Source: Acidobacteriaceae bacterium (GTDB lineage: Bacteria; Acidobacteriota; Terriglobia; Terriglobales; Acidobacteriaceae). Taken from it: a stretch of 64,000 nt of DNA. Below are positions 2,663-63,479 of the stretch, in pieces. The translations under genes and the position numbers were made by a program. The notes under the pieces were generated by a model. That model had not been told where the DNA came from and did no database searches. It was given only the letters and a program-made list of their open reading frames with translations. The number at the start of each line of letters is the position of its first letter. Position 1 is the stretch's first letter. The stretch is from positions 114,455-178,454 of the forward strand of contig PKVW01000023.1 of the NCBI GenBank assembly GCA_003131585.1, written 5' to 3'.

Positions 2663-3103
2663 TCAACGGCGGGAAAACTCGATCTTCCCTTCCGCCTCGG
2701 TGGGCACGCCATTGCAGGTTGCGGGACGATACCGCCAGGCGCGGACGGTTTGCAGGACGTTACGGTCGCCCGCGGGACCTGCGCTTTGCAGAATCAGAGG
2801 ACTATGCACGCGGCCGTCGGCGCCGACGATGAAGCTTACTTTCACCTTCAGGCCCGTTCCGGCCGGGACCAGCAGAGGATCGGGCGTGGTCAAAGCCTGG
2901 GGCGGCTGGGTGTCCTCGCAGCGCGAGCGCGCGCTCACGTGCGGGATATCGCTGAACTCGGCAGCGCGGGTGGGAGTCTTCCAGACCTGGTGTTCGCGCT
3001 CGGCTAAGACGGCCTGGCGCAGGCGCGGAGGTGGAACCTGCACGGACGCGGCGCTGGCGGCGGGAACTGCGAGGATCAGAAGCCAAGGCCAGATGCGAAG
3101 CAT
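2663..3103 (-). CDS. Secreted TonB C-terminal-domain-like protein
   Basis: The ATG at 3103 is preceded by GGAGG with good spacing, giving 146 residues. An upstream TTG at 3121 is less likely. The N-terminus is a signal peptide (MLRIWPWLLILAVPAASAA). The C-terminal 80 residues resemble the TonB C-terminal domain: VSFIVGADGRVHSPLIL, then DRNVLQTVRAWRYRPATCNG and a final EGKIEF strand. Unlike true TonB it has no membrane anchor with a long Pro-rich spacer, so it may be a free periplasmic member. The TonB-dependent receptor lies 1.3 kb away on the same strand, which suggests but does not prove a shared role. Confidence 0.75.
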   Translation of the reverse strand: MLRIWPWLLILAVPAASAASVQVPPPRLRQAVLAEREHQVWKTPTRAAEFSDIPHVSARSRCEDTQPPQALTTPDPLLVPAGTGLKVKVSFIVGADGRVHSPLILQSAGPAGDRNVLQTVRAWRYRPATCNGVPTEAEGKIEFSRR

Positions 3104-3318
3104 TTGCGGGAAACCCTCCAATGGGAGCAGGTGCGAGCAGGGGTTGTCCCTGTTGGCTTGCTAATGGGCAAGTGTGGGGCCAGGTTGAAGCCTGCTTAAG
3201 CATATGGTTATCAGTCTGTTACGGGAATCCCGCGGCAGACCGAAGTTCCCGATGTGAAGGCAATTGCATATGTCGTGCTGAGTCGCATCGCTGAAGGCCC
3301 CAAGCTCCTCCCTGGAAT

Positions 3319-4385: not shown

Positions 4386-7337
4386 TCAGAAACTGAAGGT
4401 TGCCTGCAGGTCGATGCGGCGAACGGCCGAACCGCTGGAGAATGGGCCGCCCTGAATCCCGTTCGGCGAATCGAAGAATTGCGAAACCGTGCCCTGCGCC
4501 GTCGCGTTCAGAACGCCGCTGGGATTTGCCAGGTTGACTTTGTTGAACACGTTGCGCACGGACACGCCGAAAGTCAGATTGTAGCGATGGTCGCTGGCGG
4601 TAGAGATTCCCATGGGACCGCCGCCGCCGAACAGGGGACCGTGGCCGTGTCCGCCGCCTCCTCCGCCTCCGGGGCCCGGAGCGGCACTTTTTGCCTTGGG
4701 ACCAAAACCGAAAGTCTTGGTAAGGCGCAGATTTAACGTCGCGTGCGCCGGGCCGGTTCCGTAGTTAATGGGAACCAACTTCCCGCTCGCGGAGGGCAGC
4801 ACGTCCTCGAAGGTACCCAAGGGCGTGCAGTAAATGGGATTAGTAGTGGTGCCGGTTACCGTGCCGGGATTGGAGCAAGTCTGGGTGGAATTCAAAACAG
4901 GACGGAGATTGAAGACTCCATTCGGATCGGTGGGCACGGTGATGTTAAAAGGCGAGCCGGAGCTGACGATCATGAAGGGGCTGAGGCGAAAAGCGTAAGG
5001 CAAGGCAAACGACCCGCCAACAATCAGGCGGTTGCGCGCATCGAACGAGGCGCGCCCGTAATCCTGACTGATGTTGTAGGAGTCGGAAGCAAAACCGGAG
5101 ACTCCGGAGGTATCGCTATTGGCATAGTTCAGGGTGTAGAAGCCGAAGAGCTGAACCTTCGATCCCACCTTCACGTTCGTGTTGACGATGAGCTGGTTCT
5201 GCCGGAAGGTGCCTTCGGACACGTACTGGTAGATGTTTCCCGCATTCGGGTTGGGCCGCGATATGGGATCAGGCGCGTTGACGTTGATGGTGAGGAGTTG
5301 ATCGAAGCCGCGAGAATTTAGGTACGTGACCGACAGGGTGGCTGACTTGGTGAGTTGCCGCTCCACGCTGACCGCCGACTGCAACGTTCCGGGTGCGCGC
5401 AATCTGGGGCTAATCTGATAGCTGGTGGGGATACTGGAACTGGCCGCGCCACAACTGCTGATCGGGGCGATGAGCGGCTGGTCGAGTCCGGGGAAACATG
5501 TGGGATTATTGATGACGTACTGCTGCTGGGTAACGCCATTCAACCGTTCCGCCTGCAGAATCTGCGCCTCCTGGAAGCGGTCGTAAAATATCCCGGTACC
5601 ACCGCGAATCACAACTTTGGGTGGCGCGCTGCGGCCGCCGACGCCCCAGGCGAATCCCAGGCGCGGCGCCCCATCGCCGTGATCGTGAATGTCGTTCTCT
5701 GTCTCAAAGCGCAGACCCAGGCTGAGCGTGAGGTTAGGCCGCGCGCGCCAATCATCCTGAGCGTAAAGGCCGGCGTCGACATTCGTGACTGAGGCGCCCG
5801 GATCGCCGGTGGTGATCAAGAGCTGAGTGGCATAGGGAGGCGTCGCATTAGGCATTAAGGCGTACTGATAGGAGATGGGACACGGGATTGCACCGGATCC
5901 GATGTTCGGGCAATTCTGCGGAATATCCGACGGCGAGTCGAGCGACGAGAACGTAAACGTGCCGTTGAAACCCGCATTTGAGTCGCTGACGTCGCGGATG
6001 GCACGCAGTCGTCCTCCGAACTTGAGGGTGTGATTGCCGTGAATCATCGAGGTATAGTTCTGCAGTTCGTAGTGGTCCTGGTGGTCCGTGCTCGTGCCCC
6101 CGCTGCTGCCGCCGCCGTTGAATGCGTCCGGGACATTGATCGTGGAATCGGCGCTTATTGGGGTCTGGCGGCTGATGTCGCGGAGATACTGGAAGCGGGT
6201 CTCGTTGACGATCGTGGCGCCGAAAATGTGCGTGTCGCTGATTTGCAGCGTCTGCTCGGTGGATTCCGAGTTGTCGCCCTGGGAAGCCAGACTAAAGCCG
6301 CCCACGCCATCGTTGGTTTCCGTATTGCGGTAATACTGGTAGCGCACGGTGAGGGTGTCGTTCTTGCTGAGCTGGTAGTCGAGGCGCGGGCTGACGTTGG
6401 TGCGCCGTCGGGGATTGGGAACGGCGGCGGGGGACAGTATAAAGGACACGGGATTGATCGCGTTCACCGCGGCAAGATCGTTAATGTTGCGCCGCTCGGC
6501 ATTGACGAAGAACGACGCTTTCTTGCCGATCGGCCCACTGACGTTGCCGCTGAACTGCGTGGACTCGTAACCCGGCTCCTGGCCAGCGAAGGGATTAGGC
6601 GAGTTGAAGGCGGAGTCGGTTCCACTTACATAGAACTGGCCATGAAATTTGTCGGTGCCGGGCTTGGTGAAGATCTCAATGCGGCCGTAGCCCAGTTTGT
6701 CGTACTCGGAAGAAAATGGATTCTGATTGATCCGGATTTCACGAATCGAAGCTTTGGGAGGAAGCTCGCCGGCGGTGAAGCCGTCAATGTAGAGCTGCCC
6801 GCCATTGGGCCCGGCGGAGGGCCCGGCCAGCGCCTGCAAGTCCGTGAGCAATTCGTCGGGATCGTCGGGCAGAGCCTCGAGCTCTTTGCCCGAAATCACG
6901 ATGGCTCCGGCGTTGTTCGCTGGATTCACATCGACGGTCGGCACCGTATCGGACACCTGAATCTTCTGCTCCTCAACTTGGATGTTCATTGCGACGTTGA
7001 GGCGCATCGGTTGATTGACGGTAACGACCACGTTGTCGTTTTCGTAGACGGCAAATCCCTGGGCGACCACGGTCAGCGAGTACTGGCCGATCGCCAGTCC
7101 TTTGAACTCATACAGCCCCTGTCCGTTGGTTTGGGTTGGGATGGGCGGCGAAGAGGTGGCCGCCGGCGTCAGAACGACGCTGGCATTGGCAATGGCGGCG
7201 CCGGAAGGGTCGTTCACTTGCCCGCGCAAACTGCCGGAGGCTGTCTGCCCTGCGGCGGTCTGGGATGCCGCGAGCGTCACGCAAAACTGCAATGACAAAA
7301 GGATGAGTGCAAAACAGACGCAGTTCCGAACCTTCAT
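4386..7337 (-). CDS. TonB-dependent outer-membrane receptor, Oar-like (carboxypeptidase-regulatory domain, plug, barrel)
   Basis: About 983 residues from the ATG at 7337, which places a signal peptide (MKVRNCVCFALILLSLQFC) at the N-terminus. An ATG at 7391 would add 18 unlikely residues. Order: a carboxypeptidase-regulatory-like beta-sandwich (SLRGQVNDPSGAAIANASVVL to LTVVAQGFA), a TonB-plug region (VSDTVPTVDVNPANNAGAIVISGKEL cut around residues 145-165, then LPDDPDELLTDLQALAGPSA), then a long 22-strand-type barrel ending in a terminal aromatic residue (DLQATFSF). Acidobacteria have many such paralogs, thought to import large glycans or other polymers. The substrate is unknown. A Gly/His-rich insertion (GGGGGGGHGHGP) sits in one of the last barrel loops. 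Confidence 0.9.
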   Translation of the reverse strand: MKVRNCVCFALILLSLQFCVTLAASQTAAGQTASGSLRGQVNDPSGAAIANASVVLTPAATSSPPIPTQTNGQGLYEFKGLAIGQYSLTVVAQGFAVYENDNVVVTVNQPMRLNVAMNIQVEEQKIQVSDTVPTVDVNPANNAGAIVISGKELEALPDDPDELLTDLQALAGPSAGPNGGQLYIDGFTAGELPPKASIREIRINQNPFSSEYDKLGYGRIEIFTKPGTDKFHGQFYVSGTDSAFNSPNPFAGQEPGYESTQFSGNVSGPIGKKASFFVNAERRNINDLAAVNAINPVSFILSPAAVPNPRRRTNVSPRLDYQLSKNDTLTVRYQYYRNTETNDGVGGFSLASQGDNSESTEQTLQISDTHIFGATIVNETRFQYLRDISRQTPISADSTINVPDAFNGGGSSGGTSTDHQDHYELQNYTSMIHGNHTLKFGGRLRAIRDVSDSNAGFNGTFTFSSLDSPSDIPQNCPNIGSGAIPCPISYQYALMPNATPPYATQLLITTGDPGASVTNVDAGLYAQDDWRARPNLTLSLGLRFETENDIHDHGDGAPRLGFAWGVGGRSAPPKVVIRGGTGIFYDRFQEAQILQAERLNGVTQQQYVINNPTCFPGLDQPLIAPISSCGAASSSIPTSYQISPRLRAPGTLQSAVSVERQLTKSATLSVTYLNSRGFDQLLTINVNAPDPISRPNPNAGNIYQYVSEGTFRQNQLIVNTNVKVGSKVQLFGFYTLNYANSDTSGVSGFASDSYNISQDYGRASFDARNRLIVGGSFALPYAFRLSPFMIVSSGSPFNITVPTDPNGVFNLRPVLNSTQTCSNPGTVTGTTTNPIYCTPLGTFEDVLPSASGKLVPINYGTGPAHATLNLRLTKTFGFGPKAKSAAPGPGGGGGGGHGHGPLFGGGGPMGISTASDHRYNLTFGVSVRNVFNKVNLANPSGVLNATAQGTVSQFFDSPNGIQGGPFSSGSAVRRIDLQATFSF

Positions 7338-7406: not shown

Positions 7407-8744
7407 CTATGGCCCCCCAACGTCGCCGGAGGGGCCGCCGAGGCTCCAAGGCGCCAGCATCATGGCCTGGGCGGCGTTCGGCGCGGCTTGCAGAATCGGC
7501 TCGACGCCGCTCAGCAGTGTGATCGCTGTGCCTGCGCCCGACGCCGTGCCCTCCGTCGAGACAATCATCACCGCATCGCCTTTGTGCAGATCGGCCAGGG
7601 AGACGGTTGGCAGGCGGCTGAGCATCTGCTGAAAATCCGGAGTGCCCCCGGAACGAGTGCCCGTGCCATTTCCTCGCGGGGCCATTCCACCTTCAGCCAC
7701 TCCACCGGGCGAAGTTGCTGGACGCGCAGTTTGGCCGGGCGTCGTGGTTTGGCCCGTCGTGGTTTGGCCCGAGGTGGTTTGGCCCGGAGTCGTGGTGTGG
7801 CCGGAACCCGGGTTGGGCGCGGCACCTGAAGCGGCGGCAGATGTCGCTCCGGTGGCCGCTCCTTTTAAACGCATGGCGATCCTCTGAGCCATCTCAGGGG
7901 ACAAGTGGCGAAGGAGCGAGTCCGGTGTGACCTTGACGAGCACTGTTTTTTTCGACAACAAATCCTGAACGCTGAGCGTCGACGAACTTGCATCGACTGA
8001 GTTCACCGTTCCGGCAACGTTGCGGAACGATCCGGAAACGATTTCTTCGGCCGTCAGCTCAGTGCCATCGGCGTTTCGGTCGCCACGCGCACGCACCTGA
8101 TCGCCGGGATGAATTTGCGGGAGAGTGCCTGGCTTGGCGTCGTCAAACTTCACGGAGTCCGGCGCGTAACGGCGAATTAGCGTGGTGTTGGAGCTATGAA
8201 GGGCGATATTCTTACTTCCCGAGAAGCTAACCACGGAGATCGTGACGGTTCCCGCCGCTGCATCCACCGCGGTTACCAGGCCGCCCACTCCACGCTTCTG
8301 CCAGTCTTGCAGATTCTGCTCATCCCGCGCTTCGAGGTCGGAGCGCTTCATCACTACAACGGACGAAGCCAAGAACGACAGGTTATCGTCAGAGGCCTTG
8401 CCTCCCACCAGGAGGCGATCGCCGATCTGGAGATCCTGCAACTGGATGGGCGTGGCGTTCTTCAGATCCTTCTCGCCCGGAGCGACACGAACGATACGCG
8501 TTGAAGCCTGCACCATGACGTTGACGTCGGCGCCGGAGTCAGGCGTCAGAGTGATCACCGTTCCGTGGATGGCTTTGACGGCGCCAATACGCCGGCTGGC
8601 CGTGCCCGAACCAGCGGCCTGCTGGAGTTGCTGGCCAGAAGGCATGGCATAGCAGGAGGGCGCCAGATGCATGCTGGCTGCGCTTGCGGCAGAGAGTGCG
8701 ATCGCTAGAAGCCGGTTTGTGGCGCCCGTACGCCTTTTATTCAT
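7407..8744 (-). CDS. Secreted protein with repeated OB/DUF5666-like beta domains and a Gly-Gln-Thr repeat linker
   Basis: A 445-residue protein with a signal peptide (SAASAASMHLAPSCYA). At least two similar beta-rich modules are visible: GAVKAIHGTVITLTPDSGADVNVMV with a following LQDLQIGDRLLVGGKA, and GGLVTAVDAAAGTVTISVV with IHPGDQVRARGDRNADG. A third runs AGTVNSVDASSSTLSVQDL. These resemble DUF5666 modules. Residues about 300-350 are a low-complexity tract of GQTT and TPGQT units encoded by 15-bp DNA repeats. After it comes a final module (LHKGDAVMIVSTEG). The start ATG is followed by a Lys/Arg-rich n-region. Its role is unknown. Confidence 0.75.
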   Translation of the reverse strand: MNKRRTGATNRLLAIALSAASAASMHLAPSCYAMPSGQQLQQAAGSGTASRRIGAVKAIHGTVITLTPDSGADVNVMVQASTRIVRVAPGEKDLKNATPIQLQDLQIGDRLLVGGKASDDNLSFLASSVVVMKRSDLEARDEQNLQDWQKRGVGGLVTAVDAAAGTVTISVVSFSGSKNIALHSSNTTLIRRYAPDSVKFDDAKPGTLPQIHPGDQVRARGDRNADGTELTAEEIVSGSFRNVAGTVNSVDASSSTLSVQDLLSKKTVLVKVTPDSLLRHLSPEMAQRIAMRLKGAATGATSAAASGAAPNPGSGHTTTPGQTTSGQTTTGQTTTPGQTARPATSPGGVAEGGMAPRGNGTGTRSGGTPDFQQMLSRLPTVSLADLHKGDAVMIVSTEGTASGAGTAITLLSGVEPILQAAPNAAQAMMLAPWSLGGPSGDVGGP

Positions 8745-8885
8745 GCACTTATTAATTTACATCGCCGCATCGCACACGGCGCAGGATTTACAAAGTTTTA
8801 CTTCAAGATGAGAGGATTCTCACGCGAGCGGCCCAGAACCGGACAAGCGCGGGCAGGAGAACATGGCCGAGGATCCGCGATGCAA

Positions 8886-13842: not shown

Positions 13843-14621
13843 GGCAAGCCTCGATTTGCCACCGAGTCCAGTCCGTCTGCGAAAGCTCGCACATAAGCGG
13901 TGGCCAACGGGTCACTCGATCGCAGGAAATCCTCCGGGGAAAGAACCATGACCAGCCGACCGGCTTCCATGAGCGCGATGCGCGAACCGAGCCGCAACGC
14001 TTCGCGCAGGTCGTGAGTGACGAAGACCACTGTCTTATTCAGCCGCTGCTGGAGCGATAGAAATTCGCGCTGCAATTGGTCGCGAGTGAGCGCGTCGAGC
14101 GCGCCGAACGGTTCATCCATCAGTAGGATCGAAGGATCGGCGGCCAGCGCACGAGCCACTCCCACCCGCTGCCGCTGTCCGCCCGAGAGCTGGTGCGGAT
14201 AACGCAAAGCCATTTGCGCCTCAAGCCCGACCATCTGCAACAACACCTCGACGCGCCGATGGATCCGTTCGGCGGTCCAGCCCTCGATTCGCGGAACCAG
14301 GCCAATGTTTTTTTCCACCGTGAAATGCGGGAACAAGCCCACGTCCTGGATGACATAGCCGACGCTGCGACGCAAACGAATGACGTCGCTTTCGGCCGTA
14401 GGCGCGCCATTCACGCGAACTTCCCCGCTGCTGGGGGTCAACAGCCGATTGACCAGCTTCAGTGTCGTGGTTTTCCCAGAACCACTGCGCCCCAGCAAGA
14501 CAAGCGTTTCGCCGCGTTGTACTTGCAGATTCAGCCCCGACAACAACTGCTGACCGCTGGGCAGGGCGTAGGCAACGTCACGGAATTCAATCACTGGACC
14601 ATTGGCGAAACTTGATTCCAT
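13839..14621 (-). CDS. Osmoprotectant ABC transporter ATP-binding protein
   Basis: A 260-residue ABC ATPase. Walker A is LLGRSGSGKTTTL near residue 40, the Q-loop is YVIQDVGLFPHFTV, the signature is LSGGQRQRVGVARAL near 140, Walker B is ILLMDEPFGALD and the switch histidine is in VFVTHDLREAL. It matches the OpuCA/ProV group but lacks the C-terminal CBS pair that often senses ionic strength, since it ends about 30 residues after the core. It is the first gene of the operon. Its start codon directly abuts an unusual minisatellite and has no clear Shine-Dalgarno sequence. Confidence 0.93.
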   Translation of the reverse strand: MESSFANGPVIEFRDVAYALPSGQQLLSGLNLQVQRGETLVLLGRSGSGKTTTLKLVNRLLTPSSGEVRVNGAPTAESDVIRLRRSVGYVIQDVGLFPHFTVEKNIGLVPRIEGWTAERIHRRVEVLLQMVGLEAQMALRYPHQLSGGQRQRVGVARALAADPSILLMDEPFGALDALTRDQLQREFLSLQQRLNKTVVFVTHDLREALRLGSRIALMEAGRLVMVLSPEDFLRSSDPLATAYVRAFADGLDSVANRGLP

Positions 14622-58551: not shown

Positions 58552-61104
58552 ATGACTGGCCAGGTCATAGGTCACTACCGAGTTCTCGAGAAAATCGGCG
58601 CTGGAGCTATGGGCGAGGTTTTTCGGGCGCGCGATGAAAGGCTGGGGCGCGATGTCGCTCTGAAGCTGATCCGGCCGGCTTCCAGCGACAACCCCGATCA
58701 TCTCCGCCGTTTCGAATTAGAAGCCCGCGCCGTCGCGGCGCTGAATCATCCCAATATTGTAGCTATTTATGATGTTGGCTTCGACGAAGGGTCTCCCTAC
58801 ATCGTTTGTGAATTGCTGGAAGGCGAGACCCTGCGCAAACGGCTGGCTGGCGGAGCGTTGCCCGTTCGCCTGACCGTCGACTACTCGCTGCAAATCGCAC
58901 AGGGCCTGATCGCGGCACATGATCGCCGCATCATTCATCGTGACCTGAAACCGGAAAACCTATTTGTGACCACCGATGGACGGGTCAAGATCCTCGATTT
59001 TGGAGTGGCAAAACTGCAATCCGGGCCGGAAGAATCCGGACGCTCCGTGGAAGACTTGACCACTGTCACCAAAAGCGGCGCTGTAGTCGGTACTGTCGCC
59101 TATATGTCACCCGAGCAACTGCGGGGCAAGCCAGTGGACCACCGCAGCGACATCTTCAGTGTGGGCGCGATTCTTTACGAAATGTTGACCGGCCGCCGGG
59201 CCTTTCGCGGCGAGACCGAGGTTGACACAATTACCGCGGTGCTCCTGGAAGATCCTCCAGAAATCAATCTGGAGCAGTCCAGCGTCCCCGTATCATTCCA
59301 GCAAATCGTGCGTCATTGTCTGGAGAAAGAGCCGGAGAATCGCTTTCAATCGGCACGCGATCTGGCATTTGCGCTGGACACTCTTGCAAACGCTTCCGGC
59401 GGACGGGCAACTCACTTCGGGGTTCCGGGGATGCAAGCGAAGGTCGTCCCCTGGGCCGTGGCAGGAGTGCTTCTGGTTGCAACGCTACTGCTCCTGGGTA
59501 ATCAGTGGCGCCAGAAGACTTTGTCTCCCTCTTACCGGCGTCTAACCTTTGAACAGGGCACGGTGTACTCGGCGCGCTTCGCGCCCGACTTTCGTGCAAT
59601 TGTGTACGGTGCGGCTTGGAACGGCAAGCCAGTGCAGATATTCTCCACCGTCGGGGATTCCCTCTTAACTCAGCCGCTCAACCTCACGGACGCAAACTTG
59701 CTCGCGATTTCTCACACCGGCGAACTGGCGGTGGCCCTGCACGGGGCTCACACGGCACATCTGGAAACGGAAGGAGGCACGCTGGCTCGCACACCGCTTG
59801 CCGGAGGGTCTCCTCGAGAAGTCCTCGAAGACGTTCCGTGGGCAGACTGGGATGCAAATGGCGAACTCGCCGTGGTCCACCATACTCAGGGCCGTGATCG
59901 AATTGAGTATCCGATTGGTCATGTTCTATACCAAAGCAACGGCTGGATCAGCCACCTTCGTTTTGCGCCGCAAGCCGACAAACTCGCCTTTATGGACCAT
60001 CCTGCATTGTGGGATGATCGTGGGTCCGTCTTCCTCATAGACCTTAGCGGCCATCGGAGTGCGCTTACGTCCGAGTGGGAATCTGAGGACGGTCTGGCCT
60101 GGAGTCCCGATGGGAAAGAGGTCTGGTTTACAGGCGTCGAACAGGGTATCAACCGAGACTTGGTCGCCGTGAATATGTCTGGACGGATTCGCAGTGTACT
60201 GGACCTGCCTGCCGGCATGACTCTGGAGGATGTAGCGCCGGATGGCCGCGTGCTGGTTAGCCTGGATGCCGAACGTCTTGCTATGGCCACCGCCGCAGGG
60301 AACGGCAAGCCTGTGGATCTTTCCTGGCACGATTGGGACATTGCCAAAGACATTTCCCGCGATGGGCAGTCGGTCTTGTTCGAAGATTCCAGTGAAGCCG
60401 CCGGGACTCACTATTCCGTTGCCATTCGCAAGATCGACGGCACGCCGCCCGTGCAACTGGGTGCAGGAAGCGCGGGCAGCCTTTCCCCCGATGGCAAATG
60501 GGCGATTTCCATTCTCACGGGCGGCACAGGACAGGTGACGCTCGTTCCCATCGGCCCCGGTCAATCTCGCGCGATTGCCGTACCCGGGCTGGAGCACATT
60601 CACAACGGCTCGGCCCATTTCCTGGCGGATGGAAAACGCATCACCGTCAATGCCAACGAATACGGCCGCGGCGTTCGCTGCTATCTGGTGGATTTAGCCG
60701 GCGGTAAACCGATACCGATTACGCCGGAAGGGATTACCGGCGGGTTAGTTTCACCCGACGGCCAATACATTCTTCGAGCCAATGACGCAACAGTAATCGC
60801 GGCGTATCCTATCGCTGGGGGTGCGCCCCGTCCCATCCCCGATCTCGAACCGGGTTTTATTCCCGTCCAGTGGTCGGAGGACAACTCGGCAGTTTATGGG
60901 TATCGACCCGGCCAGGTTCCAACCAAGGTGTACAAGGTCAACGTGGTTACCGGTAAAAAAATTCTCATCCAGGAATTGCAACCCGAGACAACTGCCGGCG
61001 TGGTTACCATCGCGCCCGTGGTTGTAACCCGCGACGGTTCGCGCTCCGCCTACAGCTACTACCAGGTCTTCTCCGTGCTTTATGTAATTTCGGGCTTGCG
61101 ATAG
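58552..61104 (+). CDS. Serine/threonine protein kinase with C-terminal PD40/TolB-like propeller
   Basis: An ATG at 58552 gives 850 residues (MTGQVIGHYRVLEKIGAGAM), the usual start for this family. The frame is open further upstream. Kinase residues: G-loop IGAGAMGEV, VALKLI (Lys), IIHRDLKPEN, ILDFGVAKL and AYMSPEQLRGK. A transmembrane helix (VPWAVAGVLLVATLLLLG) is at about 300-318. The extracytoplasmic part of about 530 residues has propeller strands (LRFAPQADKLAFMDHP, AWSPDGKEVWFTGVE, SLSPDGKWAISIL, LVSPDGQYILRANDA). This fusion is common in acidobacteria. The propeller may sense an external ligand. Confidence 0.92.
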   Translation: MTGQVIGHYRVLEKIGAGAMGEVFRARDERLGRDVALKLIRPASSDNPDHLRRFELEARAVAALNHPNIVAIYDVGFDEGSPYIVCELLEGETLRKRLAGGALPVRLTVDYSLQIAQGLIAAHDRRIIHRDLKPENLFVTTDGRVKILDFGVAKLQSGPEESGRSVEDLTTVTKSGAVVGTVAYMSPEQLRGKPVDHRSDIFSVGAILYEMLTGRRAFRGETEVDTITAVLLEDPPEINLEQSSVPVSFQQIVRHCLEKEPENRFQSARDLAFALDTLANASGGRATHFGVPGMQAKVVPWAVAGVLLVATLLLLGNQWRQKTLSPSYRRLTFEQGTVYSARFAPDFRAIVYGAAWNGKPVQIFSTVGDSLLTQPLNLTDANLLAISHTGELAVALHGAHTAHLETEGGTLARTPLAGGSPREVLEDVPWADWDANGELAVVHHTQGRDRIEYPIGHVLYQSNGWISHLRFAPQADKLAFMDHPALWDDRGSVFLIDLSGHRSALTSEWESEDGLAWSPDGKEVWFTGVEQGINRDLVAVNMSGRIRSVLDLPAGMTLEDVAPDGRVLVSLDAERLAMATAAGNGKPVDLSWHDWDIAKDISRDGQSVLFEDSSEAAGTHYSVAIRKIDGTPPVQLGAGSAGSLSPDGKWAISILTGGTGQVTLVPIGPGQSRAIAVPGLEHIHNGSAHFLADGKRITVNANEYGRGVRCYLVDLAGGKPIPITPEGITGGLVSPDGQYILRANDATVIAAYPIAGGAPRPIPDLEPGFIPVQWSEDNSAVYGYRPGQVPTKVYKVNVVTGKKILIQELQPETTAGVVTIAPVVVTRDGSRSAYSYYQVFSVLYVISGLR

Positions 61105-61129: not shown

Positions 61130-62176
61130 TTATTCCAGTGGCCCCGAAAAATCCGCCGGCACATAATGGAAAAAAATGGACGTCGACGTATGGCCCTCCG
61201 CCAAAACATTGCGGTAGTGAGGCACCTTCGTTCCCCGGTAGACCAAGCCGTCACCCAGCGCCTGATAAATCGTGATCGTGCCTTCGGAAGTATCGAGGCG
61301 GAGCGGCCAGGGAGTTGCCAGCTTCGGTTCGGGAGAAAAATCCAGACATAAGGTAACGCTGAACTCGCACTGCTGCCGGTCCGTGTGCTTCTTCAGTTCG
61401 GCGCCGCTCAGGTAAGACGCGAGATAAACATAAGAGGGCTTGATCGCTTCCCCGACGATGGCACTGAGCGCGTTCGCGATCTGGTGATGGAAGAATCGTG
61501 CAACACTCTCATTGTGGGCCACGTAGCGCCGCGGGCTCTGCTCGTCGCCGAGTCGAATGGCTCCCCGCCGGATGGCGTGCCGGTAGTAGCGGCGCAAAGC
61601 CGCAAGATTGAAGGGGTGAATCAAGTTGCCGAGAGATACATATCCTTTTTCTCGAAACTGGTGGGCGCCTTTACTGAGGACTTCAGCCCACTCCGCAAGA
61701 CGGCGCTCGGCGTGATCCGGAGGCGTCAGAATGCCGGCGTCTGCCAACAAAAAGCGCACGTCTCGGGGAAGGGAGTCGGGCACGGGATCTCCCGCGCGAA
61801 GACGCGAAACTACCGCTTCCAGCCGGGGACCCAGCCAAAACGGATGCAGAGCGCGCGTGGCCGGGTCACGCACCCAGGCTACCGTTTCCTCCAAGTGGAA
61901 ATTCTCCAGCAAATGGCGATGCGCTTCCAGTTCTGCCGGCACCTGTCCCGGGGGCAGCACCGAACAGTGCGGATTGAGGAACAGATGCTGAGAGAGGTTC
62001 TGCCACAACCCTTGTGAATCGAGCTGGCGCTGCGGAATCAAGTGCAGCGGCAACTCGTCGAGCAGGCAATGGAATTGGCCTGGGGGCAGCGTCGCGGTAA
62101 GCGTTTGCCGCGACCCTACCCCCATCAGGCCTGCCATCCATGCAAGCCATGCCGTGTCTTTTACTTGTGAAGCCAT
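61130..62176 (-). CDS. 2OG-Fe(II) dioxygenase, prolyl-hydroxylase-like, with unusual N-terminal half
   Basis: A 348-residue protein overlapping the preceding oxygenase gene by 16 nt. The C-terminal half (about 190-345) is a prolyl-4-hydroxylase-like jelly roll: LKKHTDRQQCEFSVTLCLDF gives the HxD ligands, and KVPHYRNVLAEG gives the distal His. The second half of the 2-oxoglutarate site is not certain. The N-terminal 180 residues are unknown; a winged-helix-like stretch (LEAVVSRLRAGDPVPDSLPR and DVRFLLADAGILTPP) vaguely recalls PqqD-type peptide-recognition domains, which is speculative. The substrate is not known. Confidence 0.75.
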   Translation of the reverse strand: MASQVKDTAWLAWMAGLMGVGSRQTLTATLPPGQFHCLLDELPLHLIPQRQLDSQGLWQNLSQHLFLNPHCSVLPPGQVPAELEAHRHLLENFHLEETVAWVRDPATRALHPFWLGPRLEAVVSRLRAGDPVPDSLPRDVRFLLADAGILTPPDHAERRLAEWAEVLSKGAHQFREKGYVSLGNLIHPFNLAALRRYYRHAIRRGAIRLGDEQSPRRYVAHNESVARFFHHQIANALSAIVGEAIKPSYVYLASYLSGAELKKHTDRQQCEFSVTLCLDFSPEPKLATPWPLRLDTSEGTITIYQALGDGLVYRGTKVPHYRNVLAEGHTSTSIFFHYVPADFSGPLE

Positions 62177-63324
62177 CCGTTCAGGGTGAAGCGGCTGTCA
62201 GCGAAAGCCCTTGAGGGGCACTCCACCGGGGTAATCTCGTGCACCAGTGAGCACGGGAAAAACACAATTTGGTTCTGCCTCGGCACGACAGACTGATAGC
62301 TGCCGGTGCCGACGTTCTGCCCGTCTTTCCCCCGCGAATCATGGAGGCGCAACTCCCCGCCTTCAAACTGGCGTGGCTCGCGATGGAAAAAGTAGACGAA
62401 CGTAATACGGCGGGACGCGATTATTTCCTGCGCGTCATCGCTGTGCGCGCCAAAAAAATCTCCGTCATTACTGGCGGTGATTTGAGCCTCCACGTGCGTG
62501 ACCGGAAACTCTTCGACCCCGAGCTGATCCAGCACTCTTGGCAGCACGCACCGGATTCGCTCCAGGATGACTTCATGATGTTTTCCCAACTCCATGAGGA
62601 CCTGCGAGCGACGATGGTTGTAATCGATCAGTCCGGGGTCTCCGCTGGGCGAAATCACCTCGCTGCGCTGGAACTCTGCCTCGTGCTGCACAGCATAGCG
62701 GACAAGTTCGTCGAGCTCCAGAGGAGCCAGGAACTCGTCCAGGACGACGCATTGGGCCCGAATGATCGCAGGCGCGTCCAAAACCGCGACGCCGCTGCCC
62801 GAGTCGGGGTGGCTTTGTTGTGTCCCCTGCTGCACGGGTACGCGTAATGGCCGGAGGCCGCTGGGGGGTTGGGGCGCGCTCGGGGGTTGCGGCGCGCGAC
62901 TGGGCGGTTGAGGCGCACTCGGGGGCTGGGGCGCATTGCTGGGCGGTTGAGGTGCGCTCGGCGGCTGGGGAGCCAGGGGCGTGCGGCTTGGTGGCTGCGG
63001 CGCGCTTGGGGGCTGGGGAGCGTGTAACTGAGGCATAGGGACGGACATGCTCTCTTCCGTCCCGGCGGGGATTCCCGAGTGAGCCAGTATCTGCTCCACA
63101 ATGCTGCCACCTAACACCGCAAAAGCGCGTTGCGCTACGGTTTCACCCACCGAGCGCGCGATGGCTGCAGTTACAGCGGATTGAATCTCTGAACTGCTGC
63201 CGCTGGACACGATCTTGGCATTTTGCAGGAGACTCATCACCAGTTCCCGCTCTCGCGGGATCAGAATGCGTTCATCCTGCATTAACGTTTCAGAAAAGGC
63301 ATCAAGAATCTGCTTCGCCGTCAT
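62161..63324 (-). CDS. 2OG-Fe(II) dioxygenase, prolyl-hydroxylase-like, with eight APQPPS repeats
   Basis: The ATG at 63324 has GGGAGGAG upstream and gives 387 residues. An N-terminal helical domain (about 1-85: AKQILDAFSETLMQDERILI, then VGETVAQRAFAVLGGSIVEQ) is not recognised. Residues about 100-160 hold eight APQPPS hexapeptides in four doublets. The C-terminal part is a P4H-like dioxygenase (DGDFFGAHSDDAQEIIASRR gives HxD; LVHEITPVECPSRAFADSRF gives the distal His and Arg). It should hydroxylate a Pro or another residue using Fe(II), O2 and 2-oxoglutarate. It is the first gene of the pair. Confidence 0.8.
   Translation of the reverse strand: MTAKQILDAFSETLMQDERILIPRERELVMSLLQNAKIVSSGSSSEIQSAVTAAIARSVGETVAQRAFAVLGGSIVEQILAHSGIPAGTEESMSVPMPQLHAPQPPSAPQPPSRTPLAPQPPSAPQPPSNAPQPPSAPQPPSRAPQPPSAPQPPSGLRPLRVPVQQGTQQSHPDSGSGVAVLDAPAIIRAQCVVLDEFLAPLELDELVRYAVQHEAEFQRSEVISPSGDPGLIDYNHRRSQVLMELGKHHEVILERIRCVLPRVLDQLGVEEFPVTHVEAQITASNDGDFFGAHSDDAQEIIASRRITFVYFFHREPRQFEGGELRLHDSRGKDGQNVGTGSYQSVVPRQNQIVFFPCSLVHEITPVECPSRAFADSRFTLNGWLHK
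62860..63025. repeat. APQPPS-coding minisatellite
   Basis: On the minus strand, eight 18-bp units encode APQPPS. They come as four doublets separated by one residue (N, R) or by RTPL. The copies vary at third positions, so selection has kept the peptide. Confidence 0.85.
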
Positions 63325-63479
63325 TGGGTACACTCCTCCCTGTATTTGCTTGAACGTTTAAGTTCCAGTGGGGCGAATGGGGAAGCAGCTTTCGCCCAGA
63401 CAGTACCACCAAGCGGGCAGATTATCAAACAGAAATTTTATTGGCTGCAAAGGCAAGCCCGGCGCGAAGGAGGAAGGCC

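Follow-up and report, generated by a model that had tools for sequence, protein, structure and literature searches.

Overlapping prolyl-hydroxylase-like oxygenases of Acidobacteriota and a Pro-rich tandem tract as their putative substrate

In a soil bacterium of the family Acidobacteriaceae, two oxygenase genes on the minus strand, P1 and the downstream P2, share 16 nt, and P1 carries a Pro-rich tandem tract between an N-terminal domain (N-domain) and a catalytic domain with the predicted fold of protein prolyl hydroxylases. We tentatively favor the idea that this arrangement constitutes a self-contained prolyl-hydroxylation module, in which the tract is the putative substrate. P1 would then be a peptidyl-prolyl hydroxylase of the HIF-PHD/PPHD type that carries its own substrate, and hydroxylation of the tract would be carried out by the active site of P1, by its co-translated partner P2 or by the two enzymes successively, with the N-domain possibly acting as an anchor or docking part. 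All unprefixed positions, except where another genome is named, refer to the window, i.e. the whole 64,000-nt stretch of DNA that was analyzed.

Anatomy and predicted folds of the P1-P2 pair

The locus comprises the following features (position, strand, description and basis):

62161-63324, minus: P1, 387 aa, N-domain, Pro-rich tandem tract and 2OG-Fe(II) prolyl-hydroxylase-like domain (ORF, PF13640, fold match to PPHD/PHD2)
63333-63340, minus: Shine-Dalgarno-like GGGAGGAG of P1, 8 nt upstream of the ATG at 63324 (sequence context)
63070-63324, minus: N-terminal helical domain of P1, ~85 aa, four predicted helices (AlphaFold model, 28 relatives aligned)
62860-63021, minus: Pro-rich tract of P1, eight APQPPS copies, residues 102-155 (low model confidence, presumably disordered)
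62164-62769, minus: catalytic domain of P1, with H294, D296, H362 and R378 invariant in 33 relatives
62161-62176, minus: overlap of P1 end and P2 start, 16 nt
61130-62176, minus: P2, 348 aa, second protein with a 2OG-Fe(II) fold, N-terminal half lineage-specific
58555-61104, plus: Ser/Thr kinase with a WD40/TolB-like propeller, convergent with P2 (Pfam, synteny, orthology)

The P1 protein begins MTAKQILD, and the overlap with P2 probably couples the translation of the two genes. A preliminary description of this DNA had reported two genes overlapping by 16 nt and eight APQPPS hexapeptides between a helical N-domain and the catalytic domain; both statements are exact. The repeat is not a chance feature, as P1 contains the most Pro-rich 54-residue stretch among all window ORFs of at least 100 aa (25 Pro vs 16 in the next).

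P1 matched PF13640 with an E-value of 6.9e-17 (62.6 bits; cut-off 27), and this significant family match, the conserved HxD...H motif and a 2OG-binding Arg (R378) place it in the 2OG-Fe(II) oxygenase superfamily. The top structural matches of its catalytic domain were nearly all protein prolyl hydroxylases, including the PPHD-EF-Tu and PHD2-HIF structures. Pseudomonas PPHD (4iw3) matched with a Z-score of 18.6 (rmsd 3.0, 179 residues), PHD2 (6yw3) with 18.5, OGFOD1/Tpa1 with ~17 and an algal prolyl 4-hydroxylase with a Ser-Pro peptide (3gze) with 16.2. The modeled catalytic fold of P1 is that of protein prolyl hydroxylases of the PPHD/HIF-PHD type.

P2 gave no match in Pfam or NCBIfam. In its model (pLDDT 88.6, pTM 0.87), residues ~160-348 matched 2OG oxygenases at Z-scores of 14-15.5 (best 15.5), among them PPHD (4iw3; Z 14.0) and PHD2 (likewise near 14); amino-acid halogenases such as lysine halogenases were also matched, and the fold match of P2 is therefore not specific for prolyl hydroxylases. 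Residues H264, D266, H320 and R322 are invariant in 36 relatives, and model and alignment together reveal a double-stranded β-helix fold with an HxD...H motif, in line with membership of the 2OG-Fe(II) oxygenase superfamily. An earlier assignment of P2 as a 2OG oxygenase, made by reading motifs in a protein that had no family match, thus gains support from fold comparison. No conserved Arg or Lys lies ~9-16 residues after the last iron-ligand His of P2, the usual place of the basic residue that anchors 2OG, so that the 2OG site of P2 is unusual or uncertain; judging from the alignment, the invariant R322 (His+2) may replace this residue. The N-terminal half of P2 had been suggested by eye to be a PqqD domain, a proposal that we discarded after hhalign against the PqqD profile, the only profile tried, returned a probability below 1%.

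Conservation, turnover and selection of the Pro-rich tract

Relatives were gathered by protein searches in whole genomes and by a scan of a genome collection, which yielded ~40 loci, almost exclusively in Acidobacteriota (Acidobacteriaceae MAGs, Candidatus Sulfotelmatobacter and Acidiferrales). In their common form, here called type A, P1 is built of the N-domain, the tract and the catalytic domain, and its end overlaps the start of P2. About 36 Acidobacteriota genomes share the pair together with its overlap and a Pro-rich tandem tract, the overlap measuring 16 nt in nearly all type-A relatives and 22 nt in a few. Conserved pairing had been proposed as a test in the preliminary description, and the pair is indeed kept, with its overlap, in the Acidobacteriota relatives. 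Of 299 genomes of the class that were searched, 10 gave a P2 relative, including three weak matches that lie in other contexts.

A Pro-rich tract is present in 36/36 distinct P1 proteins that have both N-domain and catalytic domain, with a length of about 60-140 residues and a Pro content of ~22-34%. At least three exact peptide repeats were found in 28 of these 36 tracts, with copies differing on average by 0.60 nt per codon. The repeat units vary strongly by species (APQPPS, GPQPPS, VPQPPSGP, GPGPK, EPDPPS, PKEPDPPGVRAPTKPLREAP and more; compare the tract peptides APQPPSAPQPPS of the present P1 and GPGPKSGGPGPK of another species), so that no fixed recognition motif is evident. Compared with 15 congeneric relatives (L014 to L063), the present P1 was 31-65% identical in the tract, with many gaps, and 64-81% identical in the N-domain and catalytic domain. 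The tract sequence thus changes quickly, whereas its richness in Pro, its repetitive nature and the peptide identity of the copies within a tract persist. The earlier expectation of a repeat in orthologs consequently holds for a Pro-rich repeat as such, found in every distinct P1 with an N-domain, and fails for the APQPPS hexapeptide itself.

Matches to an HMM of the N-domain were almost confined to the same genus. Weak matches in three other genomes (G303, G431 and G407) lie in aldehyde-dehydrogenase-like, sensor-kinase-like and triosephosphate-isomerase-like proteins, respectively, and were judged to be due to chance upon reading the sequences. In another genome (G410; L093:9741-10235, minus strand), an N-domain followed by SGPRPPQP repeats is left over from a deletion. 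We considered this remnant as a free precursor and rejected it, as the P1 catalytic domain, P2 and the greater part of the kinase were apparently lost in the deletion.

Rapid turnover of unit and length at constant Pro content would also be expected if the tract were a polyproline-II spacer or a protein-interaction arm, selected for stiffness and Pro content, with the enzymes acting on other proteins. We regard this as the main rival explanation, albeit an unlikely one. Pro-rich linkers are common in multidomain enzymes, the tract is of low confidence in the AlphaFold model of P1 and thus presumably disordered, and selection for stiffness or partner binding would produce much of the same pattern. 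A linker, however, does not need peptide-identical repeats with diverged codons. Relative to their consensus, the DNA sequences of the eight APQPPS copies carry 22 substitutions, of which 22/22 are synonymous and none falls on codon position 1 or 2. The chance of such an all-synonymous pattern without selection is ~1e-15 in a simulation with the same changes per copy and 1e-13 in a simpler count; as both values assume independent copies, they overstate the significance, while the direction is clear. Since the copies remained identical as peptides while their codons diverged, the repeat peptide is under selection.

A second observation that argues against a spacer comes from another genus of the same family (G078; locus L017), in which P1 is tractless and begins at the catalytic domain. 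Directly upstream of it lies a 68-aa Pro-rich ORF (8659-8865; ...SPPGGPKPGHVPGAAPTAPRPGPPPGAAPTAPKPGPKPGPVPGAAPTSRPKT), which has a good ribosome-binding site (AAGGAG, 7 nt ahead of the ATG) and a stop codon 15 nt before the P1 start. As an independent gene next to a tractless P1, the tract cannot serve as a linker here. Although a single case, this gene arrangement speaks for a substrate rather than a spacer; no credible small Pro-rich ORF was found in the vicinity of the remaining tractless pairs. Based on these results, we suggest that the repeat serves as substrate, either in cis or for the partner enzyme, as this would best account for a prolyl-hydroxylase fold that is fused or adjacent to a selected Pro-rich repeat and encoded together with a second oxygenase.

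Dense PPx motifs and the conserved 16-nt coupling overlap would also fit a PP-rich tract that acts as a programmed, EF-P-dependent ribosome pause, timing the folding of P1 or its coupling to the translation of P2. We consider such a role highly improbable, as a pause does not require some 60-140 residues of repeats and tracts of the GPGPK type contain no PP motif.

Tractless pairs, distant relatives and the linked kinase

Two loci, L016 (genome G083) and L053, contain a diverged P1-P2 pair, here called type B, that lacks both N-domain and tract, showing that the enzymes can serve something else. Both pairs directly follow homologous proteins of ~1400 aa (L016:11288-15460, minus strand; L053:2733-7352, plus strand), which might be trans substrates of the tractless pairs; the G083 protein has no match in Pfam or NCBIfam. 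The earlier interpretation of the repeat as a possible target of hydroxylation is partly supported; it agrees with the pairing, the overlap, the Pro-rich repeat, the prolyl-hydroxylase fold and the separate peptide gene of G078, and less well with the variability of the hexapeptide and the existence of these tractless pairs.

The type-B loci are consistent with a further alternative, according to which the enzymes, those of type A included, hydroxylate another molecule in trans (EF-Tu, a ribosomal protein or a different Pro-rich protein), whereas the tract gates the active site as a docking segment or pseudo-substrate. In this regard, PPHD, the closest fold match, hydroxylates EF-Tu, and the PHDs act on HIF, in both cases in trans (PMC4543633). 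However, the tandem PQPPxAPQPP pattern was found only in P1 in the whole 3.9-Mb genome, a search that produced no second tandem-PQPP protein as trans substrate. Moreover, the tractless pairs are of the diverged type, and both types coexist in the MAG palsa_309 (type A at L035, type B at L053), which suggests that type B is a distinct lineage serving a different substrate. We therefore deem a trans substrate for type-A pairs rather improbable.

More distant relatives occur in peptide-modification contexts. On the Hyphomicrobiales plasmid CP131057 (L056:6947-12217), a divergent P1+P2-like pair resides inside a lasso-peptide cluster with a lasso cyclase (3.9e-59) and a lasso PqqD (5.6e-22); a candidate precursor in this cluster (14015-14191, minus strand) has two prolines in its candidate core. 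The peptide-tailoring setting of this pair is in keeping with the favored substrate reading. Other distant P2 relatives lie in lasso-like loci of Acidobacteriota (L018 and L020) or have ORFs with a PqqD domain as neighbors (L092). At L018:8609-8761, L020:6017-6172 and L020:12370-12510 (all minus strand), small ORFs near the P2-like oxygenases encode lasso-like precursors with a YGD(I/L) motif in the leader, two of them with Pro in their tails. Around the distant P2 homologue of L092, two PqqD-like ORFs (2694-3293 and 5880-6476, plus strand) bear a TAT-like segment and tails containing Cys and Pro, and look like modified-peptide precursors. Taken together, the lasso and PqqD contexts, as circumstantial evidence, hint at ribosomal peptides or proteins as targets of the wider family.

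These contexts would also be in keeping with a RiPP-like system, in which the N-domain would function as leader and each of the repeats as a core, fused to the modifying enzyme and giving rise to a hydroxyproline-rich peptide product. The fusion of a leader-like domain to repeated, species-specific units in type A and the free peptide gene of G078 point in the same direction. Yet no protease, transporter or recognition domain was seen among the conserved neighbors of type-A loci, which are purQ, the kinase and yebC, and the N-terminal half of P2 did not match PqqD by profile comparison; we thus hold a RiPP-like system to be quite improbable. Compared with a substrate tract or a selected linker, the three other readings (trans substrate, RiPP-like precursor and translation pause) are all less likely.

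The convergent kinase, which the preliminary description did not mention, adjoins the pair in each of the ~36 distinct loci that bear a tract and offer sufficient sequence, and this linkage is kept in G078 and in Acidiferrales, where the purQ/yebC synteny is gone or was not seen. It is absent beside the tractless pairs of L016, L053 and L056. The pair-linked kinases form one clade (99/97) with respect to paralogues from the same genomes and are the best match in each genome by at least 140 bits. The kinase is not an obligate partner, as one genome (G397) keeps it next to purQ in the absence of P1 and P2, indicating that it can persist alone. Possibly, the kinase is a reader or writer acting on the same module, whose output would depend on O2, 2OG or iron. 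An extended form of the favored substrate reading, that P1 and the co-translated P2 hydroxylate the species-specific repeat in sequence as a self-substrate switch, which the kinase reads out in an O2-, 2OG- or iron-responsive module, strikes us as distinctly speculative and on balance unlikely.

Comparison with known systems

We found no description, in the open-access literature, of a prolyl hydroxylase that carries its own Pro-rich tandem tract or that hydroxylates itself. If the tract is indeed a substrate, P1 would, to our knowledge, be unprecedented among protein prolyl hydroxylases in having its substrate on the same polypeptide, and bacterial HIF-PHD-like enzymes would be tied to a Ser/Thr kinase. 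The locus family is also a natural source of short and varied Pro-rich sequences with which the recognition preferences of such enzymes could be explored.

PPHD and PHD2 (EGLN1) have the catalytic fold and the HxD...H...R residues in common with P1, and P2 has the same fold. Unlike PPHD and the PHDs, P1 and P2 are paired and kinase-linked, and P1 has a Pro-rich tract of its own; we know of no enzyme of the PPHD/PHD type that carries a Pro-rich, tandem, substrate-like tract. OGFOD1/Tpa1 are close fold matches of P1, and Tpa1, which adds two hydroxyls in sequence to one proline of Rps23 (PMC4543633), provides a precedent for two-step action. While OGFOD1/Tpa1 act on a ribosomal protein in trans, the present system comprises two co-encoded oxygenases with different N-domains and a tract inside one of them.

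The 2OG enzyme CanE, which tailors a ribosomal peptide by hydroxylating an Asp of the precursor of the lasso peptide canucin A (PMC9266682), is a further case for comparison, as distant P1/P2 relatives are found in lasso clusters; the type-A locus, in contrast, is not a lasso cluster. P1 also resembles the borosins in that a substrate-like segment is fused to a would-be modifying enzyme. In borosins, the precursor is fused to the enzyme that N-methylates its C-terminal core, whereas P1 and P2 have oxygenase folds, the repeats are internal and neither a protease nor a transporter was seen among the conserved neighbors. Finally, algal and plant prolyl 4-hydroxylases, of which an algal enzyme (3gze) is a fold match of P1, have Pro-rich repeats as substrates; in their case these repeats belong to separate cell-wall proteins, whereas here the repeat lies inside the enzyme.
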